Part shown: positions 14,917 through 63,860 of the stretch, piece after piece
Layout of the letters: every line of letters starts with the position of its first letter
How positions within the stretch are numbered: the stretch's first letter is position 1
Source of the DNA: Antitrichia curtipendula
Taxonomy: Eukaryota > Streptophyta > Bryopsida > Hypnales > Leucodontaceae
NCBI GenBank assembly: GCA_951230915.1
Contig: OX579637.1
Span: 26,288,001 to 26,352,000, forward strand
Direction of reading: 5' to 3'
Length of the DNA: 64,000 nt
Position numbers and translations under genes: made by a program
Notes under the pieces: generated by a model
The model's input: only the letters and a program-made list of their open reading frames with translations
Databases searched by the model: none
Told to the model about the DNA's origin: nothing

Positions 14917-15660
14917 CAGGTCGAGCCGAGCTGATTTGCTTTTGTCAATGTGTTTCTTATGGTTTTGCTTGTCTCCTACTTTTCTACGTTGTTTATTTCA
15001 GTCCAGAGTTGCCATGTAGTCTATGTATGCCCTTAATGCTGGGGACGTGTGATTCAGGTCCACTCGATCTAATGTGGGTTTTTCGGGGGTCTTCTACACG
15101 TGTTGTGAATGTTATCAAATTATATTCATCTGCTTGACAGGCATTCCATTTAAGCTTTCTCGGTTAGTGGCTTCGATATTTCTTACGCTTTGCCTTGTGA
15201 CTCTGGTGTGCTGGTTCAGATCGGGTCGACCTGAACTATCCTCTCAGGATCGTTTTCTTTGTGTCCTGTTATTTCTACTTTAGTTTATTGTCCCGGTCGT
15301 GTCGAGCTAAGTGCTAACCAGGGTAACCCTTTCTCTGTTTGCTCTGCGATCATCCGTTACTGGTGTGCTGTTTCAGGTCGATTCGACCTGAATGAACTAA
15401 GCTGCTTGGCTTTCTGGCTTTACTGTTTTCTATTGTTTTTCTATTTCAGGTCGGCTCGACTTGAAATATGTGGTCTTCTCGATTTTTGTCTTGATCTTTG
15501 CGTGGTTGGTTTGGTTTTCTGGTTTTATTTAGGGTTGTGACATCCTGCGTCCGTTCAGATCGGATCGACCTGAATGAACTTCTTAATTACTGTTATAATT
15601 TAGTTTGTTTTGTTTCAGTTGTCGTCTTGAACTGCTGTCGATCTGAACTGTAATCGATCT
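14917..15660. repeat. E1 palindrome field (left)
   Basis: At least eight copies of the E1 palindrome occur at about 14917, 15054, 15215, 15289, 15372, 15445, 15554 and 15628. Good copies read AGGTCGATTCGACCT (15372-15392) and AGATCGGATCGACCT (15554-15574). Several gaps are close to 73-83 bp. It lies upstream of the ParB-like exon on the minus strand, so it is probably in that gene's first intron. Confidence 0.88.
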
Positions 15661-16500
15661 AAACTGCGTATGGTTTTTATTTACCCCGATCCCGGAGCTG
15701 CATATCTACGAGTTTACCAAAATAAATCCCTTAGCCCTCTGTCTGCACTACTCCTAAACCCTAAGCCCTAAGCCCTAGGCGAGAACAGAACATGTACCCT
15801 AAGCAAACAATATGACCATACCTGCACAGAGGAAGCTGAACGTTTCGGAAATTCTTCGGAAGCATCCACAGGCCTTGATGTGTCGTCCTTGAACCTGCAC
15901 ATTCAGAGCACTAGTGGATTTCAGCTCTCGTCTTTCACTAAGTGGTATTGCTTCTATTGCACTGGAAAAGAACAAGTCACCTGTGTGCTAGTTTTCATGA
16001 AATAGGACAAACAATCTTCTAAACCCTAAACCCTTAATAAAAACCAGGGAAGGATATCATGGATTTACGGACTACAACCTCAATGAAATTCTGAATCGCA
16101 ACTTTTAAAAAAACTCAAATAACAATTTTTACAAGGCAAACATAATGCCAAAACCTGTGATGACAACACAAGCCTATTTTGCATTCCACCAACTCCCTGC
16201 TTTGCAACAACAATAATCTAAACCGAGAAGCTGACTGAAATCCAAGCAATTGCGCTGCAGGAGGTCCGCAACTTCAAAAAAAATCCAAAACGAAGCAATT
16301 GAAACCTTGAACCACTAAACCTAAACCGTAAACATAAAATCATGAATTCTACACCCAAAACCAAAAGCTCAATGAATGTAAGCAGGGTGCATGAAAACGG
16401 AAAACACCCGTAAGCAAATGGAAACCTTCACTACAAAAAACACCCAACTCCCGAAATGTAGAAACCAGTGCGCATGATCCAATACCTGACTTAATCTGAT
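15661..16500. other. Telomere-like runs and unassigned AT-rich DNA
   Basis: Degenerate CCCTAAA/CCCTAAG copies occur around 15743-15780 and 16019-16036. The rest is AT-rich with no gene seen. These runs mark the left edge of the repeat-filled core of E1. Confidence 0.6.
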
Positions 16501-17020
16501 TCAATTTCGAATTCGAAGGAGCGCCACCTAAACCCGAATCGCAAACCCCATGCAGCGACGCCGACAGCCTCAACCCCACGCAGCGACGCAGATAGCCTCA
16601 AGCCGAAATCGCAAGTCGAATGTTCAAATCGAAATCAAATGTTCAAATCAAAATCGCAAATCAAAATCGCAAGTCGAAAACCCTAAACTGCAAGTCCGAA
16701 CTCCTTCAAGCCGAATGTTCAAATCGCTGCACCGCGTGACAAAGCCGCAAATCGATGAAGGAAGGTGCTGGTCCTTCACTCGCTCAAGCACGGTGTGAGT
16801 TTCACTCGATCAAGCACGGCGTGAGTTTCACTCGCTCTCAAGCACGGCGTGAGAAACAGAAGCAAGAGGAGCAGCAGGAGAAAGCGTGAGAAACAGAAGC
16901 AAGATGAAACTGAGTGAAAAAGAAGGCAAGACAAAACGAAGCAATCGAAATCCTCGCAGCAAGGAACAAGCACAGTAGGAGAGAAAGCACGAAATGCCAA
17001 ACCCTACGACGATCCCATAT
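16500..17020 (-). promoter_or_regulatory. GC-richer block, presumed 5' region of E1 left gene
   Basis: This is a GC-richer island between the left palindrome field and the satellites, with short repeats ('aaatcgcaa(g/a)tc', 'cactcg(c/a)tcaagcacgg(c/t)gtgag'). Equivalent blocks occur at 42540-43100 in E2 and 33240-33480 in E3, always core-side of the palindromes. By position it may hold the promoter and first untranslated exon of the leftward gene. No frame here is convincing. Confidence 0.35.
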
Positions 17021-17040
17021 ACCTTGATTGCCCCGTAGCT

Positions 17041-17198
17041 ATACCCGGGAGAACAAACCCGGACCTGGGGAACAAACCTGGACCCACCAACAGTTAAGTT
17101 CCTCCCCCCCTCCAAGGATATACCCGGGAGAACAAACCCGGACCTGGGGAACAAACCCGGACCCACCAACAGTTAAGTTCCCCCCCCCCTCTAAGGAA
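17041..17198. repeat. 79-bp tandem duplication
   Basis: A unit beginning 'atacccgggagaacaaaccc' is present twice (17041 and 17120), each ending in a run of C followed by CT-rich sequence. Confidence 0.8.
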
Positions 17199-17220
17199 AA
17201 TCACAAGTTTTGAATACGGT

Positions 17221-18780
17221 ATGGCAACTTACACAAATACTGGATACATGTACGGTATGGGATACGGAAACAATACAAGTATGTATACGAGTTACACAAA
17301 TATTAGATACATGTACGGTATGGGATATGGAAACAATACAAGTATATATACGAGTATGGGATATGGATATGGGAGATTGTACTCATTCACAATTATCCCA
17401 TAAACCCACCCCTAAAGAATTATAAGAGGGGGGTGTAGGCAGTGTTTTTTTTTTCATTTTCCATGAAGTGGCAAAGTGGCGATATTAAATGTTATGGTGG
17501 TGCTCCAAGTTTCAACATTCATCCACGTATTGGATAGAAAATGTGATATTGCATATCTATAATTTTATTTTCATTCACAATGTGGCAATTTCATCCAAGA
17601 TTTTTCTTGAACTTAAAGTTTTTTGGCGATTTCATCCAAAATTTTACTAAAAATTTCCTATAGGCTTGGTGCTAATTAAAAAAAATTTGGTGCAATTGCC
17701 GGAAAAAAAAACATTGGATATGGGGTGGGGTGAAAAAATTAATTTTCAAATTTAAAAAATAATAACATTAAAATTTTAAAACTTAAATTACATTAAGGAG
17801 AGGCTGGGGTGAATAGTTCAACTTCAAAATCTATGTGCTCATTGTGCACAATCTCAAACAATGTCAGTATCGAGAAGATACTATTAATACAAATATCAAC
17901 GCCTAAAGAATTATAAGAGGGCATGTAGGGTGGGGTGAAAAAATTAATTTTCAAATTTAAGAAATAATAACATTAAAATTTTAAAACTTAAATTACATTG
18001 GGGAGAAGCTGGGGTGAATAGTTCAACTTCAAAATCTTAGAGCTCATTGTGTACAATCTCAAACAATGTTAGTGTCGAGAAGATACTATTAATACAAATA
18101 TCAACGAATTGGTGACTACAAAAATCATCCACTATGATCATCACATGTATTGAATACGATATGAAAACAAGTACAAATACAATATACATGTACGATATGG
18201 GATACAAGAATAATACAAGTATGTATTTGAGTGTGAGATATGTATACAAATATATATACAAGTATATGGATATGGATATGTATACAAGTATGTATACAAG
18301 TATGGGATATGGATACGGAAGATTGTACTCATTGACAATTATCCCATATGCCCACCCCTAAAGAATTATAAGAAGGCGTGTAGGGTAGGGTAAAAAAATT
18401 AATTTTCAAATTTAAGAAACAATAACATTAAAATTTTAAAACTTAAATTACATTAAGGAGAGGCTGGGGTGAATAGTTCAACTTCAAAACCTTAGAGCTC
18501 ATTGTGCACAATCTCAAACAATGTCAGTATCGAGAAGATACTATTAATACAAATGTCAACGCCTAAAGAATTATAAGAGGGCGTATAGGGTGGGGTGAAA
18601 AAATTAATTTTCAAATTTAAGAAATAATAACATTAAAATTTTAAAACTTAAATTACATTGGGGAGAGGCTGGGGTGAATAATTCAACTTCAAAATCTTAG
18701 AGCTCATTGTGTACAATCTCAAACAATGTCAGTGTCGAGAAGATACTATTAATACAAATATCAACGAATAGGTGACTACT
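17221..18780. repeat. Interleaved tandem repeats in E1 core
   Basis: A 63-bp repeat ('ttacacaaatact..gatacatgtacg', starts 17229 and 17292) is followed by four copies of a ~200-bp AT-rich unit. The phrase 'gaattataagaggg' or its variants recurs near 17420, 17905, 18363 and 18570, and 'ggtgaaaaaattaattttcaaattta' recurs near 17728, 17935, 18390 and 18595. Short frames rich in Tyr/Met (for example 18134-18361) are by-products of the repeat. Confidence 0.8.
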
Positions 18781-18789
18781 GAAATCATG

Positions 18790-20390
18790 CACTATGATCA
18801 CCGTTGGGATCAATCATTGGACTGGACTAAAGAATACGAGATGCACCCCTCAAAGGTGAAATAGTTGTACCGTATTTACTCTATTCTGAACCAAAAGTTT
18901 GGATCATTCAATTATTGCAGTGTGTACTGCATAAGACGTTCTACATCATGCATTTCATTACAAAGTTTAATTATGAGTTAAGAAATGTAAATGGTGAAAG
19001 AACTAAAAAAGAACTAATATATAAGACTATAAAGAACCTTTAGAAAATATTATTTAATTGATATATTTAAAAAAGGTTCCATAAATTCATAGTCTTTGCT
19101 CCGATTAATGTTCATCTTGTAGAATTAAAGTTCTCTAAACTTTTACATACGAATTCTATGAATTTAAACTAAAGATCCAAATAAGGTTACGAATTGCAAT
19201 TCTAATTATGAAATTTCAGGGGTCACGCACATTTTGGGGTACATTGTGAATAAATGAAAAGAAAACAATTGAACCAAGTGAACTATATCCTGTACTTTAG
19301 GACTCACACGTCCAAGCTCATGGAATTTTGACGTGAAACCATGGAAGAATGAATTGTGTAAGTTGCAAATGGGGTGAAGAGTTCGACTTCATGAAATGTT
19401 CGAGTTCATGCACATTTTGGGGTACATTATGGACAAATGAAAATAAAATAATTGAACCAACCATATCCTGTACTTTAGGACTCCCACGTCCAAGCTCATG
19501 GAATTTTGACGTGAAACCATGGAAGAATGAATTGTGTAAGTTGCAAATGGGGTTAAGAGTTCGGCTTCATGGAAATATTTAGTATCATGCACATTTTGGG
19601 GTACCCTATGAACAAAAGAAAAGAAAAGTTGAACCAACCATATCGTTTACTTTAGGGTATGTTTATGCCATTCCCAAAGTAACATGAACATGATCAATTT
19701 AATTTTTATGAATCGATTGTCTTTGCTTTATTCTCAGGTTCTACAATTTATTATTTTCATACTTTCATTTGTTGGTTTCATGGGTTGACACGTGTGGGGC
19801 CTGAAGTACTTGTTCTTTTTTTTATAATTTGCTCATAACATTTCTAATATAAGCATGATCAAAAATCTAATGAAGTAAGAGTCTTTGCCCCATTCGCAAT
19901 TTCTACAATTTTTTCCTTTCTTTCACATGTGAATTTTATGGGTTTACACTTGACTTTGGGTCTTGAAGTACATAATCCTAATTTTTTAATTTGTGCAAAG
20001 CTTTCCCAAAGCAACATGACAATGATCAAATTTAAATTCATGAATTCTAAGTCTTCTCTTTATTTGCAACTTCTAGAATTCTTTTCTCTTGTACTTCCAC
20101 TTATGAATTTTATGAGCTTTTAGGACTCGAGAGTCTAAAAGTACGTTGCTAGAGTAATATTTCTCACCTGAAGCATTTCCAGAAATGAGCATGATTCAAA
20201 AAATTTCGTAAAAGTGAAGTCTTTGCTCAATTTATAACTTCTGCAATTTCATTTTTACAATTAATGCAAAGAGATTTACTAAATGAATATTTTGTAAATA
20301 CTTGTAGGATTTAACAATTGAAAAAAATTCATTAAGGATGTACAAGAAAGTCCAAACCCTCCACCCTATTCCCTAAAGTTTACAAATATC
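18790..20390. repeat. Decayed ~180-bp satellite-like repeats
   Basis: 'cacattttggggtac' recurs at 19228, 19411 and about 19590 (spacing 183 and 179), each followed by 'ccaagctcatggaattttgacg' or its equivalent. From 19640 to 20330, older copies with 'cttctaca(a)tttttt' and 'atgaattttatg' phrases can be sensed at similar spacing. They look like diverged relatives of the 178-bp satellites elsewhere in the window. Confidence 0.65.
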
Positions 20391-20393
20391 TGC

Positions 20394-20422
20394 AAACCCT
20401 AAACCCTAAACCCTAAACCCTA
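20394..20422 (+). repeat. Interstitial telomere-like repeat (CCCTAAA)
   Basis: Four to five near-perfect CCCTAAA units close the right side of the E1 core. The same strand orientation is seen at the left edge (15743), so these are not a pair of inverted chromosome ends. Confidence 0.85.
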
Positions 20423-20599
20423 GAATTTCCCCAAAAAAAAAATTTTATGAAAAATTTAAAACTCCAGAGTTTCAGGGTGTTGACGAGCGAAGGGGTCTGT
20501 TCACCTTGGCCCTCAAAAAGGCAATTCCCACATTTGATGCTGCTGGAAGAAGTCTAAATTAAATAATTAACCTTCCTGCCTTTACGCCGACATATGCTT

Positions 20600-21290
20600 G
20601 TATGACTTTATATTATAAAGAACGAATCTGCAAAAACATGGAGCTAACTAAATTCAGTGGACTTTAGTAATGGCAGCAGCTGTCCGTGTGTTGTTAACCG
20701 CGAATAGTATGCATGCATCTAAGTCCAAGTACATGCCCGCTACTTTATGTATGACGTGGGTGATTTTAAAATTTCTGTACTCTGCTTCTCGCCCTCCCGT
20801 CCCCGCCAAAAAGTTATCGGATGTGTCCGACGTCCGGATTCGGGTGTTGTCTTTCACATTTGCTAGACTCTGCACCTCGGAGTGCAAGTTGTCTTTGTTC
20901 GTGGGCTATTGTTTCAGCATTGTTGATGAGAGTCATTCAAATATTGTGCATTCAGGGTGTTTGGTTACTCCGACGTTCAGTGCGATCTAAGGCGCTCGGG
21001 CTCCAAGTACGTTTTCAACGACTCAGTAGTTCCTTCGGAGGATTTCCATTCCATAAGTTATTGTACAGACGACGAGGATTCAGACTTTCGATCGTGCGCA
21101 GGATATGTTCAGTGTAGTAGGTCGATGCTCTTGTTTTTTGCGCTGATGGTTGTCTGTGAACGCATTAGATCGGTTCATAGTTTTATGAGGCACTGAAGGA
21201 GTCTGTGTGAATGTGGTCCCGATTTTATCGCCGTAAAATACAGAATGGGAAATCAGTGTTTCTTATCTAATACCTCCGTAAAGCCCAGGA
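20600..21290 (+). promoter_or_regulatory. Presumed 5' region of E1 transposase-like gene
   Basis: A GC-richer block precedes the palindrome field and the coding exon at 22072. Frames here (for example 20670-20990) show no family resemblance. By analogy with 51.4-52.0 kb (E2) and 62.1-62.4 kb (E3), it may contain the promoter and a non-coding first exon whose intron holds the palindromes. Confidence 0.35.
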
Positions 21291-21293
21291 ACA

Positions 21294-21975
21294 TTCAGGT
21301 CCAGGCGACTTGAATGGTGTGCAGTGTAATGTAATTTATAAGTTCTTCATATAGTAATTGGAACTCCAGTCTTCAGGCCTCTCGATCTAAATACTATGAT
21401 ATCCCATATGAAATAACAGGATAACCTCATCATTTTAGGTCGGTTCGACCTAAAACGGATTACACTAGTTCATTGGAAGATATGCTTAAAATATCTCAAA
21501 AGTGGTCCATATTGACATTCGTCTTTAACCGTATATTCTGCTGTCTAAAATGAGTATTAGGTCGACTCGACCTAAATGCCTTGAACTGGAATAATGGTTG
21601 TCACATGTGTTGAATCATACTTGAAACACATGAAGATGTGTCCTTTTCTATGTCAGGATTATAATTAGTTTTGCTATGAATGAGTCCTGTGTAACTGAAT
21701 ACTTTGATTTAGGTCGACCCGACCTGATAGTGAATCTCGTGGGATATACGGATTATGCTTGTCTCCTTATCGAGGGGGTTATCGTCTAGGTTTTAGTTCG
21801 TTGCTGGATGATGGCGTTCAGGTCGAGTCGACCTGAGTAAGAACGGTGAAGATGGATAGACTAAATGCTTATCTAGTTCTTCATTATACTGAGTATGCAT
21901 TGTCATTGTCACCGTTCTGGTATTTTCTTTCTCCGAGGTAGTTGCATATTGTGGACGTTAGGGTTGAGTCGATCT
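21294..21975. repeat. E1 palindrome field (right)
   Basis: Copies lie at 21294-21314, 21434-21454, 21556-21577 (AGGTCGACTCGACCT, perfect), 21711-21731, 21817-21837 and about 21961. They have the same sequence type as the field at 14.9-15.7 kb, although 6 kb apart, and unlike those of E2 or E3. They end about 95 bp before the splice acceptor of the transposase-like gene. Confidence 0.9.
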
Positions 21976-22071
21976 TACATTTTTCTTGTAAGCTTTAATT
22001 CTTATACTACATAAACTTTTCTTTGATCTTGTTGACTTACCACCTATTATACTGATCTCTTCCCAGATGCG

Positions 22072-24960
22072 ATGGATTCCTCGGCAGACGCAGTGGATAT
22101 GGTGGAGTCATCGGACGATGAGTACTATCCGCGAACTGAGGAATTCTTATTGTCGGAGTTGTTAGACGATGAACTCCAAAATGCGGATGGAGTGAATGCT
22201 GATGTCCCAGATTGTGAAGGTCTTCCACGTAGGCTTTGGAATACTCGGGTTGTGACATTGTACAACGAAGTCGGCCTTCTCGTTGGTCAAGGTACCTGCC
22301 ACAGTGTGAATTCTGACCTTGTCCTCGGTGTCAGTGGTCCTCTTGGAGACACTCATGTAGCAGTTCACATTTCCAAGACATTTTCTGAAGATGACTTGCC
22401 AAAAGAACGGGAGTGCTCGCTACTTGCTTGGCCTATTCATTTAGTCCATTGCCTTGGAGCTAGTCTACGTGATCATGAGGCTCGAGATAATTTCAATCGC
22501 CTCCAAGCGGCTCTCCTAAATCCACCATCTTCGACGTCTGCGCGCCCGTATACAAGTACCATCCGAAATCCGCCCCGCGAGACTACTGCACGAACAAAAG
22601 AACTACTCACTCAAGATTCCATCAACTTGGTGTCTAGCAAAATATGTTGTCGGCTGAATTGTGTTCAGTCATTCCCCAGGGATAAGATACGAGCCTTTCA
22701 TGAACGTACGTACCAGAATTCAACCTTCAAGCACAAAGCCTTTAGGAAAACGGAAGTGCATAGACAAACCCATCTTGACCAACGTGGAAGAAGAATGGTA
22801 ACAATTGAAGAGATACCGGTGTGCATGCGAGCGTGGATGCATATTTCAGGGGTCCCAAAATCCACCTTCTTCCGCTACCAAACGTACATGAAGGTCGGAC
22901 GGGAAGCAATGGAGCACGGCAACAAAGGATTGGTGAAGCCAAGAAAGCACACTCAACAAGCTACTGCAACATTGAAGTGCATCCTAGAGAAAGAGGCGGA
23001 TCACATGCCACATCGTACAAAGACACTGAAGTCGGGGGAAAAGGTTGTATCCATGATTCTCCCCTCCACCTTCCAATGGAAGGGCAAAATGAAAGAACTC
23101 AATGAAGCGAATGCTGCTTTTGGATTGAAGGAGGTCTCAATTTCAAACTTGAGCAAGATTAGATGTTCAGCGTTTCCAGAGTATGAGGTGAAGAAACCAG
23201 GGGACAATTTCGCACGGTGCGCTACTTGTGACAAATTGCAAGAGCTTAGGAGGCGTGCTCTTGCTAGGTCTGTCACTGCTTTGAAGTGGTCACGGAGGTT
23301 GGACAAACATCTAGCAATTGCTCGTGCTCATCGAGAGCTATACTATGCAAATCGCTACCGATCACTTACTTCACCTCATGAGTGCCTCACAATCATGCAT
23401 GACAAAATGGACCACGCGAAAACAGCTTGTCCAGTCTTCTCCCACAAGAGTAAAGATGTTGATGGTCTTATGAAGTTGCCTGTGTCTGTCACGGGCATGA
23501 TTGCGCATGGTCATGGAGATGTGCGTTATGCACATTATGGCTTGGATCTATTCCCAAAAGATTCAAACTACACCATTGGCTCCATGGCAAAGTTGTTGCG
23601 AGATTTGGAGTTGCCTCCCAAGTCTTCTTTCCGGCAGTTGCTTGTGGGTTTGGGGTCCACCAATTTGTTTCGTGCAGTGTTGAAGGGAGCTGAGATGTGC
23701 GAAAATTCACTTCCTTCTCCGCCAATCAACTTAGTTCCAGCAATGCCTTTGCCCCGTATTCTCAATGTGCAAATGGACAATGCCACAGGTGACAACAAGA
23801 ACAGATACGTTTTTTGTTTTTGGTCTCTACTTGTTGCGAACAAGATCTTTCGAGAAGTGTATGTGAACTTCATGATTGTGGGTCATACGCACGATGATAT
23901 TGATGCGTTGTTTGGAAGATGGAGCATGCTCTTGAAGAAGGAGAACTTCCCAACAATCCCGGCCCTCATGAAGTCCTTCATGGATGTGGAGTCCATTCCT
24001 ACTATCCCTCATCTCATAGAAGAGGTGCCCGATTTCAAGGGTTTCATTGCTGGTAAATGGATGGACGGCGATGAGATTCTCATAGGACACACAAGACCAC
24101 AACAAGTGAAGTTCTATCTAGATTCGACGAGTTGTCCAGTCATGAAGTACAAATTGAAGTGCACGGATGAAGATTGGTTGGGCAAGGATGGAGGAGGCAT
24201 TAAGTTGTGGAAAGAAGACGCTGAAGGGCGAAGTCAATGGCCGCGCGGTGTACCGTTGTTGGTTCCACAAAAGGCAATGAAAGGCGTGGAAGACATTGTG
24301 AAAGGTGTGTCTGGATTCGTGAAGTACTGGGAGAATCTATGCAATGCAGACGTCACTGGAGAATGTCGTAGACGGTACGAGCCAGTGGTGTGCTATGGGT
24401 ATGGTCTTAAGATTGCTCTGCAGGAGCCACTACCATTGTCCACTGTTTTGAAAGACGGGTTTTGGCCAACTACTCGGGTACAAGCAACAGAAGCAGATCA
24501 ATTAGACGAAGATGGCGAGGACCTTGAAGAATATGGTGTGGATGACGCTTATGTTGGGCCTTTGAGGGATTGCCCGCAACCATCCTTCAGGGTGGCGCGA
24601 GATCTCTACAAAGGGTACTTTGTTGCAGTTCGACCTGCGGATGGTGAAAGTCAACCAGTTTGGATTGCCAGGGCGTTGTCCGATCCGAACTGCAATCCTG
24701 AGAAGCCGAATTGTGTGCCCATTCAATACTTTTGTCCGACATCAAGGAATCAGGATGTTTGAGATTTCTATACAGGATGGGACAGTGAAAGAGGTCTACG
24801 TTGGAAGGTTGATGAAACCGAACCACCACTTTGGGAAGAAACAAACGCTTTGATGACAGCATGGAAGTCCCAGAACAGAAGAGATACTCGCGAGTGTAGG
24901 ATCAAGATTCCTACAGCTCAGATTGAAGTCATCAACCAAAGCTTGGCTTCATATACTTGA
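22072..24960 (+). pseudogene. E1 transposase-like protein, truncated by a stop
   Basis: The coding exon follows acceptor 'ctcttcccag' and starts at ATG 22072. 896 codons are open to TGA 24760-24762; homology to E2 continues in the same frame ('DFYTGWDSERGLRWKV') to about 24960, so about 65 C-terminal codons are cut off. E2 has a Gln codon where E1 has TGA. Zinc-ligand-like Cys pairs ('ICCRLNC', 'FARCATCD'), 'IMHDKMDHAKT', 'QMDNATGDNKNRYVF' and 'VGHTHDDIDALFGRWS' are all conserved, so the catalytic-looking core is present. It may still give a near-full product. Family discussion is under the E2 copy. Confidence 0.85.
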
Positions 24961-25578
24961 CATTCTGGAATATTACCCTCGAATTAGTTATAGTATGCTA
25001 ACTTCATATATTGGATATTTACTATTTTTTTGTCTTCAATTTTATTTATATATACCTACTATTACGTGTTTCCACATTCTCTTCTTTGGATATGTTATAT
25101 TATTTTATTTGCTTAATGTATGTCCAAAATGGATTTAGAAATGTAATGCGATTGAAAAAAAAGGGCAGTGGGTATAACCACTCTTTAGTTTGTTGACGTG
25201 TGAAGCACTTGTCACAATTTTGGATAGGGGGCCCGTTGGTTGTTACAACTTTCCTGCCTGCAAAGCTCACTTAGCAGTACCAAGTCATGTATCACTTTCA
25301 GTCACTCATAAGATTTCAGCGGGAATCAAACTCGGACTTCCTCAAGGAGATGAATCGCTTCTCACAACCAAACGTTCAGCTCATGACTTGGTGTTCAACA
25401 ATGGTTTTAGAATTCATTTATATGATCTTAAACAATAGTATAACCCAAACCTGATTGTATTTGGTGACAAAACTCTCATTTTAATGGAAATTACAATGTT
25501 GCAACTAACAAATGTCGCGATTCTCAACCTGAATTGCATACACTTAATATTTGGATTTTGAACATCTAAATGGACAAT
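24961..25578. other. E1 right subterminal region
   Basis: AT-rich with no gene. It contains 'ctctcattttaatggaaat' at about 25473-25491; E2 has 'ctcccattttaatggaaat' at the corresponding place (about 56637-56656), marking homologous right ends. Confidence 0.6.
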
Positions 25579-30545: not shown

Positions 30546-30551
30546 AAAATC

Positions 30552-30568: not shown

Positions 30569-30590
30569 ACAATGAAATCGTACTACATAC

Positions 30591-50893: not shown

Positions 50894-50999
50894 AAACCTA
50901 GAATTTCGAGAATCTGAATCCTTAATTCTCTCCCATGAAAGTGGAATTCAGCGGGCATTTAATTTGTTCATTAATATATACTAATTTTTACAACACAGA

Positions 51000-51985: not shown

Positions 51986-51994
51986 CCTAATTTT

Positions 51995-53240
51995 ACGGAA
52001 TTGTAATTCAGCGCTGACCGCGTTGAATTGCAGCAGAGAATCGTCTATGATTTCAATACCTCTGAATTGCATTTCAGCGCGCATAGCGCTGAATTGCAAT
52101 AGAGGACCGACGACGCTAACATGGTTAACATATACCATACTACTGCATTTCAGCATGCTCAGCGCTGAATTACAATTGCGACCGGTCATGAATTGACGTT
52201 GAATATACACATTATTGCATTTTAATGCACATAGTGCTGAATGGCATTTGACACCGAGTACGAGTAAGATAATTATTATACATCATAGTATTGCATTTCA
52301 GCACGCTTAGCGCTGAATTGCATTTGGGAATTGAGCATGAATATCTGATTCATGTACATCATGATAATGGGTTTTAGCGCGTTTAGCGCTGAACTGCAGG
52401 GCTTGCGTAGATGGTCTGTATGAATCTTAGTATTGCGCATCAGCGCGCTTAGCTCTAACTGTAGTTCATTGCGTGTCTGAAGTGCATTGATCCAGTAATA
52501 CATAATATAGCATGTTCCTTCCCTAATTACAATGACGTATACCGTAGTACTGCAATTCAGCGCGCTCAGCGCTGAATTGCATTTGTGAACGGTCATGAAT
52601 AGACGTAGATTATACATAGTATTGTATGTGAACACACTTAGTGCTGAATGTCATTTGAAACCGACTATGCATAGATAATTAGTGTGCATCATAGTGTTGC
52701 ATTTCAGCGCGCTTAGCGCTGAATTGCATTTGCGAACGGTCATGAATAGACGTAGATTATACATAGTATTGCATGTGAACACACTTAGTGCTGAATGTCA
52801 TTTGAAACCGACTACGCATAGACAATTAGTGTGCATCATAGTGTTGCATTTCAGCGCGCTTAGCGCTGAATTGCAAGAGGGGGCCGACCTTGCATAGATG
52901 TACAGTATATATCCTAATATTGTACTTCAGCGCGCATATCTCTAAACTGCTGTTCATTGCGTGTGTGCAGTGCATTGTTCCATTGTTTCAGAATATAGCA
53001 TGTCTTATTCTTAATTTTAGTGACGTGCCATGATTGTTCTATTGACATGTTGTTTTTAAATAGTTTTTTGGATACTGCAGATCATTAGTCTTCGACGTAT
53101 CACACTACTAACTTGGTATTAGGCGCCAAATCGCGCCGTGAGGAATGACATATCTATTGATATTGTGTTGATTTATGATACGTGAACATTTCTGACTCTG
53201 GACTTTGAATGCGATTCAGCGCGGTTCGAGCTGATTTGCA
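51995..53240. repeat. E2 palindrome array (right), ~73-bp spacing
   Basis: Copies of TTCAGCGCGCTTAGCGCTGA type, with looser variants, lie at about 52008, 52074, 52150, 52225, 52297, 52373, 52440, 52555, 52629, 52699, 52775, 52848, 52926 and 53214. Most gaps are 66-78 bp. Compared with the left field of the same element, the arms CAGCG...CGCTG are the same but the centre is CGCTTAG or CGCATAG instead of CGACTCG. Confidence 0.9.
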
Positions 53241-53399
53241 CTACATGGTTGCTGTCATTACTGGACTCTTGACAACGTAGAATTGGGATTCTGATTCAGT
53301 GGTGTTCGTAATGCATTCTGCTCGACCCGGGCATAATTGTAACTCATAGGTATTCAATGTTTTTTACACGTTTATTGGAACAACTTTCTTGTCAGGTGC

Positions 53400-56244
53400 C
53401 ATGGCCTCAGAAGTCGACCCTGACGATGTAATGGAGGACTCGGACGAGGAACTCCAGATTCCTGAGGAATCGATTCAAGACATCCCTGATTGCGAAGGTA
53501 TTCCGCGTAAGCATTGGAATACAAAGTGCGTAACCTTGTACAATGAAGGTGGAGTACTTATTGGGGAAGGTACTTGCCATAGTGTAAACTTGGACTTGGT
53601 TCTAGGTGCTCATGGTCCTCTGGGCGACACTCATGTTGCAGTATTCATTTCGAGGACACATTCAAAAGATGACATATCTCATGAGCAAATTTACTCTTTG
53701 ATTGCTTGGCCTATTGAGCTTGTCCACTGCCGTGGGGCAAGCCTTCATGATCATGAAGCCAGGGATAGATTCAATTGTCGCCAAGTGAATCTTCTCAACC
53801 CACCGTCGTCGACTTCTAGCAGACCCTATTCAAGTATCCTCAGAAACCCTCATCGCGAGACTTCCCTGAAGTCGAAAAGTCTTCTTACACAAGTGTCCAT
53901 CAACGCAGTTTCTAGCAAGGTTTGCTGTGTCCGAAATTGTTTTCAGCCGTTTCCAAGGGAGAAGATTCGGGCCTTCCGTGAGCGCATGTACCAGAATTCG
54001 ACGTTTAAGCAGAGAGCCTTCATGAAGATGGACGTCCATAGACATAGTCATTGCGACTCTCGTGGAAAGCACATGGTGACGGTTGACAAGGTCCCGGTTT
54101 GCATGCAGGCTTGGAGACATATTGCTGGTGTCTCTGATACTACATTCTTTTGGTATCTGAAGGACATGAAGGGTCGTCGGGAAGCAAAGGACCATGGCAA
54201 TACGGGATTGGTGAAGCCAAAGAAACACACTGAACAAGCTACTGCTACCTTGAAGTGTCTCCTTGAGAAGGAGGCCGACCACATGCCACATCGTACTCGA
54301 ACTATGAAGTCGGGGGAGAAGGTCGTGTCCATGTGTCTATCGCCTACGTTTCAGTGGAAGGGGAAGATGAAAGAAATCAATGATACCAATGCAGCTTTTG
54401 GATTGCCTGAAGTTTCAATTTCAAATTTAAGCAAGATCAGATCCTCCAAATTCTCGGAGTATGAGGTGAAGAAGCCAGGGGACAATTTCGCTCGGTGCGC
54501 TACTTGTGACAAACTAAAAGAGCTGAGGAAGGGTGCTCTTGCTGGTTCTAAGACCGCTTTGATGTGGTCGCTGAAGTTGGACAAGCATCTTGCTATTGCG
54601 CGCGCTCACAGGGAGTTGTACTATGCAAACCGTTATCGATCGCATACTTTTCCGCACGAGTGCCTCACTATCATGCACAACAAGATGGATCATTCCAAAA
54701 CCGCTTGCCCAGTCTTTTCCCACAAGAGTAAAGACACTGATGGTCTCATGAAGTTGCCCGTGTCTGTCACTGGTATGATTGCGCATGGGCATGCTGATGT
54801 GCGATATGCGCATTATGGTTTGGATTTGTTTCCTCACGATTCAAACTATACCATTGGCTCTATGGCAAAGTTGTTGCGAGATCTTGAGTTGACACCGAAG
54901 TCTTCTTCTCGGCAATTGTTTGCGAGATTGCCGTCAACAAATTTGTTCAAAGCAGTTATGAAGGGTGCGGAGATGTGTGAAGCCTCGCTTGCCCCACCAC
55001 CAATTAACTTGGTTCCGGCATCACCGTTGCCACCTATTCTCATTGTGCAGATGGACAATGCCACTGGGGACAACAAGAATAGATATGTTTTTTGTTTCTG
55101 GTCTCTACTTGTTGCAAACAAGATCTTCCGTGAAGTATACGTGAACTTCATGATTGTGGGTCACACGCACGACGACATTGATGCACTGTTTGGAAGATGG
55201 AGTATGCAACTGAAGAAGGAGAACTTCCCTACAATTCCTGCACTTATGAAGTCGTTCATGGATGTGGAATCCATTCCCACTATCCCTCACCTTGTGGAAG
55301 AGGTGCCTAATTTCAAGGATTTCATTGCAGGTTCATTTGTGGACGGTGGTGACATCCTCGTTGGACACACTCGACCACAACAAGTGAAGTTCTACCTAGA
55401 TTCCACGGGATGTCCTGTCATGAAGTACAAACTATTGTGTACTGATGTCGACTGGTTAGGGGAAAACGGCACAGGCATTAAGTTGTGGAAAGAAGATGCT
55501 GAAGGAAAAAGTTTGTGGCCGGAAGGGGTACCATTGGCAGTTCCTCAGAAGGCAATGAAGGGCTTAGATGACATTGTGAAGGGTGTACATGGATTTGTGA
55601 AGTACTGGGAGGACTTGTGCAATGCAGACGTCACTGGGGAATGCAGGAGGCGCTATGAGCATGTGGTGCACTATTGGCGTGATGTGAAGGTTGCGCTGCA
55701 AGACCCACTACCTGCATCTACTATTTTGAAGGATGGTTTCTGGCCGACTACTCGAGTTCAAGCGACTCAAGAAGATGGGTTAGACGAAGACGGCGAAGAC
55801 CGTGAAGAATTTGGAGAAGATGAGGCCTACATTGGACCTTCACGGGGGCGCCCACAACCGTCTTTCAGGGTGATTCAAGATGTTTTTGATGGCTACTTCC
55901 TTGCGGTAAGGCCAACAGATGGTGACAGTCATCCAGTTTGGATTGCAAGGGCATTGTCTGATCCACATTGTAACCCTCGGGAACCAAATTGCGTGCGCAT
56001 TCAATATTTCCGTCCAACATCAAGAGATGAGGATGTTCAAAACTTCTACACTGGATGGGACAATGAAAGAGGTCTGCGTTGGAAGGTTGATGAAACCAAA
56101 CCACCACGTTGGCAGCATACAGACGCATTGATGACCGTGTGGAAGTCTAGAATTCAAAAAGATACCACAGAGTGCATGATCAAGATTCCTGCTGCTCAAA
56201 TTGAAGTCATCAAGCAAAGTTTGGCTTCAATTCCGTCGTCTTAA
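53400..56244 (+). CDS. E2 transposase-like protein, intact
   Basis: ATG 53400 lies in a good context (gccATGg), seven bases after the splice acceptor 'ttcttgtcag'; the upstream in-frame codons belong to the intron. About 947 residues end at TAA. Layout: acidic N-terminus; a ~100-residue domain ('PDCEGIPRKHWNTKCVTLYN', 'GEGTCHSVNLDLVLGAHGPL'); Cys pair 'VCCVRNC'; HTH-like stretch near 'AWRHIAGVSDTTFFWYLKDM'; zinc-like 'FARCATCD'; then an RNase-H/DDE-like core with 'LTIMHNKMDHSKT', 'IVQMDNATGDNKNRYVFCFW' and 'VGHTHDDIDALFGRWS'. These blocks match a widespread eukaryotic family of uncharacterised integrase-like proteins (I believe the Pfam DUF7869 group). The most likely acidic catalytic residues are the Asp of 'MDH', 'MDN' and 'HDDID'. 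It is well placed to mobilise E1, E2 and relatives. Confidence 0.88.
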
Positions 56245-56742
56245 ACGCGACGGTGGATTGTTGATTTTATGAGATTCTGAGTACATATTAGTAATATGTT
56301 ATTAAGTGTTATTTGGTTTTTAGATGTTTACAGTAATTATGCTTTCACATGTTTGTGGGATATAGATAATACTATTATATTTTATCCCAGATGTGAGTTA
56401 GGAGTTTCATAGGTGTTTCTGTGTTGATTTCCATGCGTGCAACTAGAGTTATGGATTTGTAGTAGTGAATATATGTTTTGGTAATGTATTTGCGATCTTT
56501 ATATCGCAAACACAATATATATACTGTATTAATATATTTTGTATTTACATTATTATGTTTACATGGTTGTGAATTGAATGTAGTTTATGACATGAAACAA
56601 TGCAATGTTTATTGAAGGACATGTATTGCTTGCAAGACTCCCATTTTAATGGAAATGACTAGTTTGAACTAATAAAATGAGTGATTATGGAGCTAAAGTG
56701 TAGGCCATTTTCATTCATTCATTGTGCCTTCAAAAGCCTAAT
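56245..56742. other. E2 right subterminal region
   Basis: AT-rich 3' untranslated and end region; no gene. 'ctcccattttaatggaaat' at about 56637 matches E1. Confidence 0.6.
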
Positions 56743-56793
56743 ATTATTTTGGGAGTGCCCCATAATCCCAAAATAATGAATATGACGTTAAAT
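56743..56793. repeat. E2 right end: hairpin, inverted end, target duplication
   Basis: A perfect 12-bp stem (ATTATTTTGGGA, 56743-56754, and its complement 56766-56777) has an 11-base loop and overlaps the inverted end 56768-56789, followed by AAAT. Stem sequences differ from E1 (GGGA versus GAGAG) but both arms changed together. Confidence 0.9.
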
Positions 56794-57240
56794 AACTCAC
56801 GGGGAATTCAAGTAACTCACGGGGAATTCAAGTAACGCAGCTTCGGGCTTTATGAGCTGGTCCCCTGTCTCCCACCTCCTGCCTCACAGATCGCCTCGCA
56901 GGTCGCCTCGCAGCTAGTGTCGTCCTAAACCCTTACGCAACACCCTCACGCTCTCTTACACTTACAAAATCCTCACGCCCTCCTGTATTCACAACATCCT
57001 CACGCACTCGCACTCCACACACGGCAGCTCGCAATTGCATGCAGAACACAAACACGCAAACACAAACTCACAAAATGCACTCCACTCACGACACGACACA
57101 CATGATTTCGGCAGAGTCCCCTCTTTGCGGCATAAGGAGGGAGACGACGGACCAAGGCTACGCCGAACCCTCACGCCCTAGGCTAGGTAAGTGCCGGGGC
57201 TGCTCCCTCTAGGTCTGGGTCTGGAGCCGAACCCGCGGCT
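56794..57240. other. E3 core resumed: 20-bp repeat and GC-rich block
   Basis: The 20-bp tandem continues to about 56836, then GC-rich DNA with 'gctggtcccctgtctcccacctcc' (about 56872), 'gcctcgcaggtcgcctcgcag' and 'cctaaacccttacgc', parallel to 33290-33365. No gene is supported. Confidence 0.5.
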
Positions 57241-60200
57241 CAGGAAGTAAGCCCATTTCCGATCACTTACGCATTTCAGCATTTGTGTAATTGAGCAATG
57301 GTGGAGGAGAAAATTTTCTCCAACGAGGAAATAGAAATAAGAAAGGTTGCCATTTTTGGTAATTTTTCATCACGTGTAGAATTAGTAAAAATTAAAGAAG
57401 TGAAAAAGTCAGGGTTTCCTATTTCCGATCAATAGGCAAGCCCATTCTTGATCAATGGCAACTTTATTAGGTGCCATTGTGTTATTCATTACAGAAGAAT
57501 CAAATAAATGGTCTATAAAGTTATGGTTACAAATAAATCAGTCTATTGATTGGAAATGGGAGGGTGATTGGAAAGAAGGTGGCTACCTTAACGAGACTCA
57601 GCAGCTCTAGGTCTGTGTGAGTCCCAACTTCTTCACCTAAGACTCAGAATTTAGTTTTGGATTTCTAATATATTTTGAGTGTAGTGAGTGTAGTTTTAGA
57701 TGTTAAAAGACCTAAAGAGTGTGTTAGATCAGAATCATTGTTGCACATACCAATACAGCCCCTAGTCACTTTATACTTAGTTTTTTCTAAATACACCTGA
57801 ATCCCGCATGTAAATAGGATAGAAACCCACATATTGAAAATAGTAAGCGTGTCAGTAGAATTGTCCGTTTGTCTATAACCATTTGTGCAATGAGACACAA
57901 ATTAGCTAAAATGGTCCATGGAAATCTTATGAGAACCATAATGTAAGAAACTCTAAGATAAGAACTTGTACATGTTCAAGTTTTTTGTTTAAAATTACCA
58001 AAATTGGCAATTTGAAAAAAATAGCTAAGCAATTCTTCTTGGACTAATTTTTGTGAATTGTTTTTCAAATTGAAGTTTCGGATTTCCGGTTTCATTTGTT
58101 TTTTATCTTTGCAGTTTGTATTACTTATTCGATCACTATTGTTTAATTAGGCTTCTTTATATAAACAATTCCAAATCAATTTTATCTTAAATAACATTCA
58201 AGTTCAATATTATCAATTTTTAAGTAGCTTACCTTAAATGAAAAGAAACCCTAAAATCAAAAAAATTATTTTTGTTAATGTAATGAATTCCTCTGTTCTT
58301 CACTCCTACAACTTTTCTTAAATAAAATCCAATTTTCAACTGAAAGCAATGGAATGGTTCTCATTTGCACATCAATTTATCATCTCTAGAAATTCAAAAT
58401 TTCAATTGTAGACATTTTTATTTCTTATGTCATTTTCATGATTTGAGGAGTGATATGTTTTTTTGGAATTAGTACAAGTCAGGTTCTTAATTTTTTTGTA
58501 GAGATTATTGGGTGTAAGAAAAAAAATATATAAATGTATTCATAAGCCCCCCATGATGGTTATCGTATTTGTTTACAAGTTCCACACGGGTTTTTTTGCA
58601 CCAATTTCATATGGAATCCATGACTTGTTATTTTATTGCCCCATAAAGTGTGAAGCATGCTTTTTTTTTTTTTAAGTTCACGTACAAACGTAAAAACAAA
58701 AGTCCATGAATTGAGTATTTTTTTGGATCATTCTTAGAAGAAAGAATGATTACTACTTTCACACGGGTTTTTTTTAAATGGCCTACACTAATTTCCTCAA
58801 AAGAAAACATTCTTGAAAATCTTTCATTTCACGCAAAAAGGTACGTGAAAATTATTAATTGAAGTTTTAAATACTTAAATCAACATGGGGGACTAATCAA
58901 CACATTCATATTTTTTTTTTGGCCTTCCAAATAGTCTATGCAAGCAAAGAAAGTTGGCCTATATTAATTCCCGTAAATGAAATCATTCATGTAAATCTTA
59001 TGTTTCACGTAAAAAGGTACCCTAAAATTACACACACGTCAAGTTCTAAATACTTAATGTAATCAATGAATAGGTTGTTTAAATGATTTCACATACTAAT
59101 AGAGAAATATTTATTGTTGACACCTTGTAATCTAAGTTTTGCTACTTCTACAAATACCCAGAGGAGTAGTATAGGGGTTCAAAGTCTAGGAAATAGTCAA
59201 ATAGTCTAATGTTTTGTGACTAGGGTCACTTGTAATTAAGATGGCAATGAGATTTACTATAATATTTCACAAACGTCAATGAATCATACATTCACTCTTA
59301 TGCCCATTTCATATAATTTGGTTGCCAGTTCGTTAATTAATGCTCTGGACGCAGGAAATGTCGTCTCGTTCCTTTCTAATGTGCTATGGTCATTTATAAT
59401 TATATATATAGAGATTACAGACAAATTCTTTAATTACTGGTTATTTTCTTTTACCAAGTCAATTTGACCAGTCCCTATTTATCTAGCTTAATTACTAGAT
59501 TACAATGAGTAACAAATCGGTCTCAGTTCATTGGCAATTTGTCTCTAACTAAATGCAAGAGGAATGACTGTATAATGCAACTCCATTTAGTTTCTTTTGG
59601 CACAACTCAAACAATTTGCCAGAAAGCAAAGATGTCAATCACTAAGGAACTCCCAATTAGTGAATTCGGTGACTCATCATGCTTAAGTCAATTTGACTCC
59701 TTCCATTGACTTTACAACTTTTCAATACTATAACATCACTAAGTCAATTTGTTCATAGTCAATTTTTTTTTTATTAATTACTTAAAACGTAATGGTTATC
59801 AGCTTTACATTTAAAATCTTCATTTCATATGAAAAGCTATCAAACTCATTACACAATCCACCTTGCAATTGTTGAAATGCAATTTTTTTTATAAGTAGAC
59901 ATCGCAAATAACTCCAAATCAACGCTTGCATGTTTAAATTTTCAACGGTGATAATCATGAAAACACTTTACTCTTTCCATTGGGACTATTTTCAAAGTAA
60001 ATGGATAAGTACAACTTTTTAGATCTCAATGGAAGTGAAGTTGGCAAGCTTTGTTCAAAGCTAGGAAATCAAGTAAAATTTGCAAACTTTACTCTTCCAC
60101 TAATGATACATACATGCTTATGAGGACCTCTCAAAAATCAAATATTTACCTTTTTTAGTGAAAAATAAAAGTTTCCAATAGTTAACCTTCAATACTGCCA

Positions 60201-61590
60201 TTGAAATTTTTTTAACCGGTCAAAGGAATTTAACGGCCCGTATCCAAATGAGCTTGAAATTTTGCAACCACCATATTTGGTCGCTCAGGCAGTAAGGGGT
60301 TAATTATAGACTGAAGATCCAACAAATCACTTTGTCAATTTGTCGGTCTAGCTTCTAAAACCGCAACCGCTCAGATAAAAGAGTGTTCGTCAATTTGATC
60401 TTCAGCAATTCCACGCTTAGGGTTTAGGGTATAGACAATTCACAAACAATCAAGTTGACACAGACAATTAAGGTAAACCTGCCTATGATAGGCAAAATAA
60501 CTAATTTGTCATGTTGCCATTACCAAAAAAATTCTGATTTTTTTTCATACAAAGACAAATCTAAGAAATGAAGGAAGCAACTAGAATTTTATTTTTTGGA
60601 GAAAGTATGAATTAGTTCTGAACTGTTCTGCCCAATTGGTCTAAGAGAATCTGTAGACTATACCAAATCAGCAAAAAGTGTTTCTATAATGGTCATCTTA
60701 CCACCTAAAGCAATCACTAGATTTTGTAACATGGCCTTGACATGAAGGAATAAAAAAAATAACTTTCTATGACAAGTTTACACTAGAAAGGTGTAAGTGT
60801 CCTATGACAATCAACCCTGTCTAAAAATCATTTAATGTAGTATTTGAATTGAGAGTTTTGGACAATAGAAACCTAAGTGTAGCCTTTATTAAACAATACT
60901 CAAAACTATAGGTCCAGATCAAAGTTCAATAAAAAATAAATAGGGGGGCAAAAAATCACTTGAACACACATCGTTAGTTATAGATACATTAAGTGATCTC
61001 CTTGTGATTATTTTAACACAATCAAAACCCACATCAAATAAAAAGAATCCAATCACTAGATTTCAAATATGCAAAACAAACATCTAATGCTACAAAGGAT
61101 TTGCAAAAGACAATTTGTATATTAAGCTTGAAAAATAGTTTTGTATGAATATGTGCAACAAGTGGACAAGCTAAGACTAGCAAAAAATTGAGAGAGAGAG
61201 GCAAAAGAGTTTTTCAACTATTTAACTTCGGCTCCAAAAATGATTCAAAAGCTCCAAGTCACTAAATCAATTTGCCCCTCTTCTAATCCCGACCATTTGC
61301 CTCCTTTACAATCTATTCACAATATCAAATTGCCTCTAACACTTTGCCTGCTTTAGATGGTCAAATAACCTTCATAGATATATTTTGTTGACGCTGGTTT
61401 TGAGTAATAATTAGTGCACAAATTATTGTGGAAAACCAATTAGGCGGCATACTTCCCGAATTTTCAACTAATTGATAATTTCTCAGCAAAAATAAATTTC
61501 AGTTCCTCTTTCTATTCTTCTTGTTCTTTTAAATAGATATTTTTATGTTACTAATCAGTATAAAAATATAACCCACAGCCCTAAAATTTA
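57241..61590. other. AT-rich stretch without recognised genes
   Basis: I examined the frames here (longest about 77 codons) and found none with family resemblance or conserved composition. Phrases such as 'tccatgactt' and 'aaattcaagt' hint at very old satellite copies around 58300-59000, but I could not establish a period. This would be the core of E3. Confidence 0.5.
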
Positions 61591-61599
61591 AATTAACCT

Positions 61600-61810
61600 A
61601 TGTACCCTAAACCCTAAATCCTAAACCCTAAAATCCGATTGAATACTTATCATGTGTAGGAATAAGCCTAAATCCTGAACCTTGAACCCTAGAATCCTAT
61701 AGAATGAGAAAAGAGTAACCCTAAACCCTAAAATTTACCTTCAAAACAGAATCCAGGTACCCTCAAATCTGAATTCTAAACTATAACTGCAACTGTAAAC
61801 CCTAAACCGT
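61600..61810 (+). repeat. Interstitial telomere-like repeats (CCCTAAA), degenerate
   Basis: 'accctaaaccctaaatcctaaaccctaaaa' style runs occur near 61607-61637, and more scattered copies to 61806. They sit just before the GC-rich block at 62.1 kb, as in E1 and E2. Confidence 0.8.
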
Positions 61811-62099
61811 TAAGCTTTCATTCAAAAAATTAACTATAAAAAAATACTAGAAAATGAATCTTTAGTTTCACCCATTGGAAGTTACGTGGATAGTGGGAAA
61901 TTATTCCAATTCCATAAAATCTGACCTCTAGTTGCACAAGAAGACAAGCGACTGCACTAATAGCCGGCGCGTATATCTGGACTTTGATTTTTTGGGTTTG
62001 GTACTAATGGAGCCGCATTTTGCATGGCCTAATTCTGACAGAAAGTGGTCCAAAAAGTGGAAATAAAGCAATGTCAGAGAAAGTGGATTTTTAATAACC

Positions 62100-62370
62100 C
62101 GTACATTCGGAGCAAATTCAAATTTTTGGAATCCGGCGCCCATATTTTCCCGCCCTTCTTCCTCTGACAGGTCCGTTGTGTCTCCTTGTCCAATTCAAGC
62201 CGGAGTTCCCCTTGCTTCTCCTCTGTAGCAACGTCACTTCTTCTCGTCGCGTTTCAGATGATTTTGTAGAGTTCCTGCTAATTGCTTCGCCAACTTCTTG
62301 CGGAATTTTTTTTATGACCGTGCTGCGGACTTCCGGAGAGTAAAGTGAGTAACTGCAGCAGGTGCACACG
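62100..62370 (+). promoter_or_regulatory. Presumed 5' region of E3 transposase-like gene
   Basis: A GC-richer block containing 'atattttcccgcccttcttc' lies between the telomere-like run and the palindromes. The minus-strand 83-codon frame here has no recognisable homology. Positionally it is equivalent to 51480-51600 in E2. Confidence 0.35.
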
Positions 62371-62699
62371 CTTGCTGTAGTTGCTGGAGACTATTCTTTG
62401 TAGACATAATGTACTTTTGGTATTGACTAGTTTGCGCATATAGTTCTGCAGGTGGTTTTGGACGTCTGATGCCCTCTACTGTCTTCAAGGATCGTGTTTT
62501 TTGCTAAAAAGAATAGTGAAATATAGGATCCTCATTGATTAATGTTGTACAAGGGGATGTTCTACCTCAGTCTGACTTCTATAACGTTGAAGTACGTAGT
62601 TTCCGATATATACGCCGATTTTTACGGAACTTTCATTTTAATACATATTCAATGAACAGTACATCCTTGTGTCGACGATAAGGATAGACTGTAGAGAAA

Positions 62700-63860
62700 C
62701 TAAATCCCGTGGATGTATCCTCGAGTTGACAATAATTCTTGAATCTAGCATGTCTTGTGATTATCGTCAACTCGAGGATATATAGGATATAATCAGAATT
62801 AGTAATGACTAGTAAAGTCTATCCTTGACTCAATAGTAGACCTTTACGTATGTTGATGCATGATGGGAAATATCCCCGAGTCGACGATAATATATTTGAT
62901 CTTATTATAAGAATTAGACGACCTATAATTTTGAGGATTTCTTGAATGTTATCTGTATTTGACGGGGTCTTCTCCACGGTAAACTGCGTGGATTATCTAT
63001 CCTCGAGTCGAGGATACGGCTTGAGGTGACCATATTTAATAGTTTACTTCCTGGACTGAATTGATGACAATTCTGAATCTAGAATGTTCTGTGTTTATCG
63101 CCGACTTGAGGATATATAGGAGATAATCGTAATTAGGAATGACCATCGAAGTCTATCCTTGACTCATTGATAGACGTTTACATATTTAGATGGACGATGA
63201 GCAGTATCCTCGAGTCGGCGATAATATATGACATCTTATTGTAGAAATTGAACGACCTATAATTGTGAGGATTTTACGAAAGTTGATGTATTTGACGGGG
63301 TCCTCCACATGGTAAAATGCGTAGATTCCGTATCCTTGAGTCGAGGATATTTTTCAATGTAAACCTATTCAGTAGTTTACTTCCTGGACTGTAGATATGG
63401 TTGGTCTTCTATAATAGTGAATTGTACAGAAATATAACAAAATCTTAGTGAACAAGTTTCCCATGTAACTGACACTCAAATGTGAAGACTTGTATCAGTA
63501 ACTTGAGGTCATAACTCCGATCATCGAGTCGACGATACCATGTAATTGAACAATTTCATTTACTTAATAATTATACAATACCTGTATTATTTACAGTCCA
63601 GGATGTAAACTATCTAACACTGTGAACGTAGATTCCTATCCAACAAATCGTATTGAAATATGACAGAATATTAATGGTTTTTGGTCAAGAAAATCATAAG
63701 AAAAGAATAGTATCAGTTATATCACCACAACATTCCGATCATCGAATTGACGATGCCTTCGAGTTGAGAGTCATTATTATAAAATATTGGTATCTCATTT
63801 GATCTAGTCTCTTTGTTAGAAAAGTATTATAGAACCTCTATCCTCGAGTCGAGGTCACAT
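62700..63860. repeat. E3 palindrome field (right)
   Basis: A dozen copies of ATCCTCGAGTCGAGGAT type: about 62719, 62767, 62820, 62874, 62998-63016 (perfect), 63098, 63156, 63207, 63331, 63520, 63739 and 63840. Parts are repeated with their surroundings: 62720-63010 and 63080-63360 are diverged duplicates, as shown by 'tttgacggggtc(t)tccac' in both. In E1 and E2 such a field is followed within about 0.1-0.2 kb by the transposase-like exon, so that exon should start soon after 64000. Confidence 0.88.

Follow-up and report, generated by a model that had tools for sequence, protein, structure and literature searches.

The window analysed here is a 64,000-nucleotide stretch of nuclear DNA from the moss Antitrichia curtipendula (assembly GCA_951230915.1, contig OX579637.1, positions 26,288,001 to 26,352,000 of the forward strand), with related proteins in Physcomitrium patens and Ceratodon purpureus. 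It contains three large DNA transposons—E1, E2, and E3—with terminal inverted repeats (TIRs) and 4-bp target-site duplications (TSDs), each carrying many copies of a palindrome type of its own. Palindromes occupy the divergent intergenic region, introns, and gaps between genes. Those of E1 and E2 are family-specific, and palindrome type has diversified together with the leftward gene module of the elements. We describe this anatomy below, follow the palindromes through the whole assembly (400 Mb, 303 contigs), and weigh which protein, if any, would read them.

Elements, genes, and palindrome fields

Self-comparison of the window revealed one gene set present twice, in E1 and in E2. E1 (7318..25625, + strand; 18.3 kb; TIR AACGTTATATTCATTA) sits in a 179-bp satellite array between perfect TSDs (AATA at 7314–7317 and 25626–25629). 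E2 (33514..56789, + strand; 23.3 kb; TIR AACSTCATATTC) is nested in E3: Its TSD has one mismatch (AAGT at 33510–33513, AAAT at 56790–56793), and both flanks, which are parts of E3, show the same 20-bp repeat unit. The TIRs of E1 and E2 are of the AACGTYATATTC type, with AACCTCATATTC at the left end of E2. E3 comprises a left part (30411..33513) with ParB-like gene fragments and a palindrome field, whose left end was not found, and a right part (56794..64000) that runs past the window. The gene order of the E1/E2 clade predicts that E3 continues, outside the window, into a DUF7869 gene, and an N-terminal DUF7869 match (172 residues, 34% identical to E1) is present there, at window coordinate ~64371. 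Another element, on contig C173, extends from 2057 to 23633 within its stretch (21.6 kb as it stands) and has perfect AGTG/AGTG TSDs.

Each element of this clade is organized around a divergent pair of gene blocks. Gene C, an FCP1/NIF-like phosphatase gene (NIF below), and a gene that we call ParB-MTase, after its predicted ParB and methyltransferase (MTase) folds, run leftward; a gene for a DUF7869 protein, probably the transposase, runs rightward. All four genes occur in this order in E1 (with ParB truncated), E2, the C173 element, and the copies C1, C9, and C5_33.13. The phosphatase gene is present in 10 of the 11 E1/E2-clade copies having ParB and a visible left side, the copy without it being C5_19.74.

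In E1, gene C (7684..8352, − strand) encodes 222 residues with no Pfam family, followed by the phosphatase gene (8674..9417, − strand; Pfam NIF, E = 6.7e-14), the N-terminal half of ParB-MTase (9909..11237, − strand; C-terminal half deleted), and the DUF7869 gene (22072..24762, + strand; 896 residues). The E2 counterparts are gene C (34413..35066, − strand), the phosphatase gene (35281..35892, − strand; Pfam NIF, E = 7.3e-12), ParB-MTase (37070..40917, − strand; several exons), and DUF7869 (53389..56244, + strand; 951 residues). The two NIF matches score 52.3 and 45.7 bits, both above the cut-off of 21.8. Exon limits in E2 were taken from P. patens protein P0002; intron 1 is only putative there because one open frame (37852–40038) reads through it. 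E3 retains a ParB-like fragment (30411..31194, − strand) with a palindrome at the intron-1 position. In another P. patens model, P0008, the start of a NIF-type phosphatase is fused to the ParB-MTase gene.

The palindromes form left and right fields in the divergent region and scattered sites within the leftward module. E1 has sites in a gene gap and near or in ParB intron 1 (8566..9936; sites at 8566, 9846, and 9916), a left field (14915..15574; 14915, 15053, 15215, 15372, 15445, and 15554) that a retroelement-like insert has apparently separated from the ParB gene, and a right field upstream of DUF7869 (21294..21837; 21294, 21434, 21556, 21708, and 21817). In E2, gap and intron sites span 35171..39373: 35171 and 35238 (minor type) in the gap between C and NIF, 36619 (minor type), and 37770, 37851, 39277, and 39353 in ParB introns. 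Its left field (40954..41621) has the consensus TTCAGCGCGANTCGCGCTGAA and its right field (52007..53235) the consensus TTCAGCGCGCTTAGCGCTGAA, mostly within ~72/147-bp tandem repeats; none of the 21 E2 sites is wholly coding, and one spans an exon edge. E3 has the intron-position site at 30551 and a left field at 32108–32781 (together 30550..32800; consensus TATCCTCGANTCGAGGATA), and 13 sites in its right field (62661..63859). Telomere-like AAACCCT repeats lie 0.9–1.1 kb ahead of the right field in all three elements (20394–20422 in E1, 50821–50891 in E2, and 61604–61632 in E3).

Hand-picking yielded 14, 21, and 21 sites in E1, E2, and E3, so that the 15–25 copies per element given in a preliminary description of this DNA fit E2 and E3 and slightly overstate E1. 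The half-sites are TTCAGGTCGA in E1, TTCAGCGCGA in E2, and (C)TATCCTCGA in E3. Matches with at most three mismatches to the 19–21-bp consensus number 11, 17, and 20 in the window, against none in three base shuffles, which bears out the claim that each element has its own type. The three palindrome types quoted earlier are real, although each exact string occurs once; most copies are imperfect. Left and right fields of an element share the same type, as described before, even 30 kb apart in E3, where the separation exists because E2 has inserted between them. Three of the E3-type matches, at 1365–1449, lie outside all three elements and were excluded from the hand-picked counts; the E3-like palindromes of this place (1344–1476; TATCTTCGGCTCGAGGATA type) adjoin a 179-bp satellite array and are probably a fragment of another element.

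Family specificity and co-diversification

Genome-wide counts, made for the E1 and E2 types, tied both to their own clades. Fifteen exact matches to the E2 pattern, in 10 loci, compare with ~0.1 expected (16 fixed bases, even base composition) and with 0 for the reversed control. All nine loci other than E2 itself carry E2-clade elements, so all 15 exact sites lie in such elements; ParB identity to E2 is 90–96% at seven of the nine, 79–86% at C5_22.07, and 62–67% at C173, and, within the limits of each stretch, sites occupy the corresponding gaps, introns, and fields. The E1 pattern occurs at 390 places (control 0). Among the 50 of these that were listed, an E1-clade ParB or DUF7869 match lies within 25 kb of 42, within 12 kb of 37, and within 5 kb of 25; the 25-kb zones around E1-clade genes span 0.75 Mb of contigs C1–C3, and the E1-clade gene lists are lower bounds. 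None of the listed E1 sites lies near the three E2 intervals entered on contigs C1–C3. Sites of these two types are not spread at random in these counts. Identities were scored for 51 of 2146 DUF7869 candidates and 95 of 856 ParB candidates.

Further palindrome types emerged at related loci. When the regions upstream of 26 ParB or DUF7869 loci were searched without a consensus, 22 showed a palindrome family exceeding the best of 30 base shuffles, though one of them (ParB 89671, two sites) is marginal; five E2-clade loci were covered on the ParB side only, the DUF7869 gene lying outside the stretch. Palindromes were present within the searched 0.6–2.5 kb upstream of DUF7869 at 12 of 12 DUF7869 loci, including L001, a DUF7869-bearing moss-like contig in a cyanobacterial bin (AVDCRST_MAG81) that is probably contamination. 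New types are TTYAGCGCG at C173; TTTAGCGC, with a different core, at a DUF7869 gene 9.5–12.4 kb left of the window; TTATCTTCG, closest to the E3 type, at another 4.5–7.1 kb left of the window; and TTTAGCTCG on L001. Two DUF7869 loci of a distant clade (87% alike, 33–37% to most others) have an even palindrome, TCGTGGGATCCCACGA, present 6 and 8 times, whereas 10 shuffles gave no more than 1; nothing with the standard palindrome geometry was found at either. The proposal that all types share the core CGA(C/G)TCG therefore falls: The even palindrome lacks it, and in E1 the A of this core belongs to the two arm positions with the lowest conservation.

Palindrome type follows the left module (ParB/NIF/C) rather than the transposase. 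The DUF7869 proteins of E1, E2, and C173 are equidistant (77, 75, and 74%), whereas ParB pairs E2 with C173 (61%) apart from E1 (41 and 45%); NIF and C group the elements like ParB, and so do the palindromes. ParB accordingly splits into GGTCG and GCGCG clades. Best local alignments between E1 and E2 are 77% identical for DUF7869, 52% for ParB, 57% for NIF, and 46% for C. A prediction fixed beforehand concerned locus C1:23.93M, whose DUF7869 is 76% identical to that of E1—no closer than that of E2—and whose palindromes are of the GGTCG type; on the view that the left module determines the type, an E1-like ParB was expected there. This was borne out, with 59% identity to E1 against 43% to E2 and 46% to C173. 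At a second such locus, C2:53.05M, the N-terminal half of ParB is 58% identical to E1, compared over that part.

Between families the palindromes also appear to be kept. In the left field of E2 (40918–41680), blastn against C173 aligns only short palindrome-centred stretches, while most coding DNA of the two elements aligns. The earlier statement that both arms change together holds between families but not within them: Changes in both arms number 3 (E1), 3 (E2), and 8 (E3), against 3.0, 3.2, and 7.1 after arm shuffling, a comparison of limited power with so few changes. Arms that vary independently about a family half-site fit a dimer reading each arm.

Candidate readers of the palindromes

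We propose that the palindromes are binding sites of a homodimeric protein encoded by each transposon family, a reading that on the sequence evidence stands about evenly poised. The dyad sites of the divergent promoter region, of introns, and of the gaps between genes would be bound by the element's own dimer, and the bound protein would mark its own copies and regulate or de-repress them in trans, in the manner of the Arabidopsis anti-silencing factor VANC. The most likely reader would be ParB-MTase, whose sequence diverges with the palindrome, and the outcome may be anti-silencing or autoregulation. NIF, C, and ParB are not separable by the grouping data; ParB-MTase is favoured because both of its folds are of dimeric DNA-binding types in bacteria. 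Extended to the ~20-kb lineage, we tentatively suggest, at somewhat less than even confidence, a co-diversifying lock and key in which a ParB-fold/pseudo-methyltransferase fusion of bacterial-type domains, encoded together with an FCP1-like phosphatase, would read family-private dyads dispersed in the non-coding DNA of the element and de-repress or mark only its own copies, with specificity switching through half-site letters and, in one distant clade, also through dyad spacing.

ParB-MTase is modelled with a ParB fold and a degenerate β-class DNA-methyltransferase fold. Predicted structures show a ParB-N fold and the β-class fold with its motif order (IV before I), and CcrM is the best structural match of the MTase-like domain. 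Catalytic motif IV reads D[LF]R, replacing [DNS]PP[YFW], in all 23 homologues that cover it (DIR in the window's own E2 gene), unlike β-class enzymes such as CcrM, M.BceJIV, and RsrI and unlike bdelloid N4CMT. Bacterial ParB proteins carry a CTP-binding motif of the GERR type. Across the 29 aligned rows no such motif was found, and the region reads NGQHS in 26 of the 29, with NGQHN, NGQHC, and NGQYS once each. Scanned against Pfam to E = 10, the ParB frames of E1 and E2 gave no match, and DUF1985/DUF287 were not among the 25 of 27 weak Pfam families listed for 50 ParB relatives.

Several results weigh against this proposal. The fold assignments come from Foldseek E-values of 0.002–0.04 together with a second-look aligner, and at E ≤ 0.001 neither modelled protein had a Foldseek match. 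In a comparison of E2 copies, variability is no lower in the arms than in their flanks (π 0.087 vs. 0.081, uncorrected for CpG mutability; C173 and copies covering <80% of a region—1, 1, and 3 loci—excluded), which gives no sign of purifying selection once an element has inserted, and we dropped that idea; the pattern fits decay of individual copies after insertion, with selection acting between families. No gene of the E1-clade lists is found within 25 kb of eight of the 50 listed E1 sites. E2 is not perfectly pure: Its right field (52007–53215) keeps the arms around a mostly asymmetric core that differs from the main type (GCGC-GCTTA-GCGC vs. GCGC-GANTC-GCGC), and a minor second type, TTCAGCTCGA-N-TCGAGCTGAA, recurs at set positions in E2 elements, in degenerate form at 35238 and 36619 and better kept in other copies. 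Palindrome fields are not clearly set apart by their observed/expected CpG ratio (0.77–0.94 in five fields with palindromes masked vs. 0.62–0.94 elsewhere), and a CpG-protection signature was discarded. Finally, half-site distance correlates with DUF7869 distance over seven types (r = 0.68; 101 of 5040 permutations as high; E3 distances from 140–170 residues). The view of the palindromes as self-recognition sites diverging with the element survives the genome tests on E1 and E2 without its single core, strict purity, and within-element covariation.

That correlation, and the presence of palindromes upstream of DUF7869 at every such locus searched, would also follow if the palindromes were internal sites of the DUF7869 transposase, comparable to the subterminal motifs of CACTA/Ac-type elements in synapsis or transposition control. 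We consider this unlikely. The sites keep clear of the element ends, by at least 1248 bp on the left of E1, 1657 bp on the left of E2, and 3.5 kb on the right of both, a misfit with end binding by a transposase, and the three equidistant transposases are associated with palindromes that nonetheless pair E2 with C173 as ParB does. Less probable still is recognition by a host regulator or insulator, which would give the elements promoter activity. Sites in the divergent promoter region and introns would suit it, as would the AAACCCT repeats near the right fields, which resemble host promoter boxes; selection for a host factor should favour one motif, however, and here the motif varies by family, including its spacing geometry, with exact E2 sites confined to elements.

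The CcrM match brings in another option, improbable in our judgment: modification of the sites by the MTase-like domain, for example by methylation within a GANTC core. CcrM recognises GANTC, and perfect palindromes contain it. GANTC is whole in only 4 of the 14 E1 sites, however, and absent from the E2 right-field consensus, and with catalytic motif IV lost in every homologue covering it we abandoned a GANTC methylation code. DNA or RNA hairpins, cruciforms, or recombination sites, which near-perfect dyad symmetry and the partly tandem right fields might suggest, are very improbable and were dropped as the leading explanation, since compensatory changes in the three families do not exceed arm shuffling, within the limited power of that comparison, and independently varying arms oppose base pairing.

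Returning to a family-encoded dimer, its best reading by analogy is a system that would work like VANDAL/VANC from other parts, as judged from DNA sequence. According to the available parts of PMC5735166 and PMC10398659, VANC21 binds YAGTATTAY (9 bp; PMC5735166) in VANDAL21 introns and intergenic regions, VANDAL motifs form in tandem repeats, VANC6 targets bear other motifs, and conservation is higher in the transposase VANA than in VANC. On these descriptions the moss elements share family-specific non-coding motifs, tandem repeats, related elements with different motifs, and accessory proteins (ParB/NIF/C) that diverge faster than the transposase-like DUF7869. They differ in having ~20-bp palindromes instead of the 9-bp VANC21 motif, a putative accessory protein of ParB and β-class MTase folds instead of DUF1985/DUF287, a DUF7869 transposase, and a 4-bp TSD. 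Sola transposons resemble them by their 4-bp target duplications (AT-rich in Sola2; PMC3627910), short TIRs, and occurrence in moss (Physcomitrella Sola1 is tabulated in PMC9033089); neither palindrome fields nor a ParB-MTase/NIF module is mentioned in the passages of those two papers that were consulted. A ParB-fold domain and multicopy palindromic sites also recall bacterial ParB/parS. The bacterial parS sites are palindromic and present in multiple copies, with one conserved sequence that is not family-specific.

The listings from literature searches of open papers showed no description of a moss palindrome/ParB-MTase transposon system. If the proposal is right, this would be a second, independently built code by which transposons recognise their own sequences, in plants distant from Arabidopsis and made of entirely different parts. 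Transposases that are 74–77% identical with different palindromes and ParB proteins would make a change of protein/site specificity testable by swaps, and the data point to a moss ParB/methyltransferase-fold protein family that was unrecognised in the Pfam and NCBIfam scans run.

Surrounding repeats and related elements

Repeats are dense in the window, with 178–179-bp and 208-bp satellites and retroelement-like open frames, the latter assigned by eye and from a weak aspartyl-protease match. Satellite arrays interrupt or flank the elements at 1479–7317, 25626–27662, 43434–44889, and 46084–49729; they comprise 178–179-bp arrays and one 208-bp array of 7 copies with 99% matches. In E1, retroelement-like open frames at 11999–13801 separate the left palindrome field from the ParB-MTase gene. 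Both E1 (25578–25625) and E2 (56740–56789) have a short hairpin at the right end, formed with the terminal repeat, and a self-complementary stretch of 395 bp that lies inside E2 next to its left terminus (33804–34198) is also kept in the C173 element. On L018, three units at 2072–3600, with 614-bp spacing, have TIR-like left ends and one E3-type palindrome each; they are probably non-autonomous relatives of E3.

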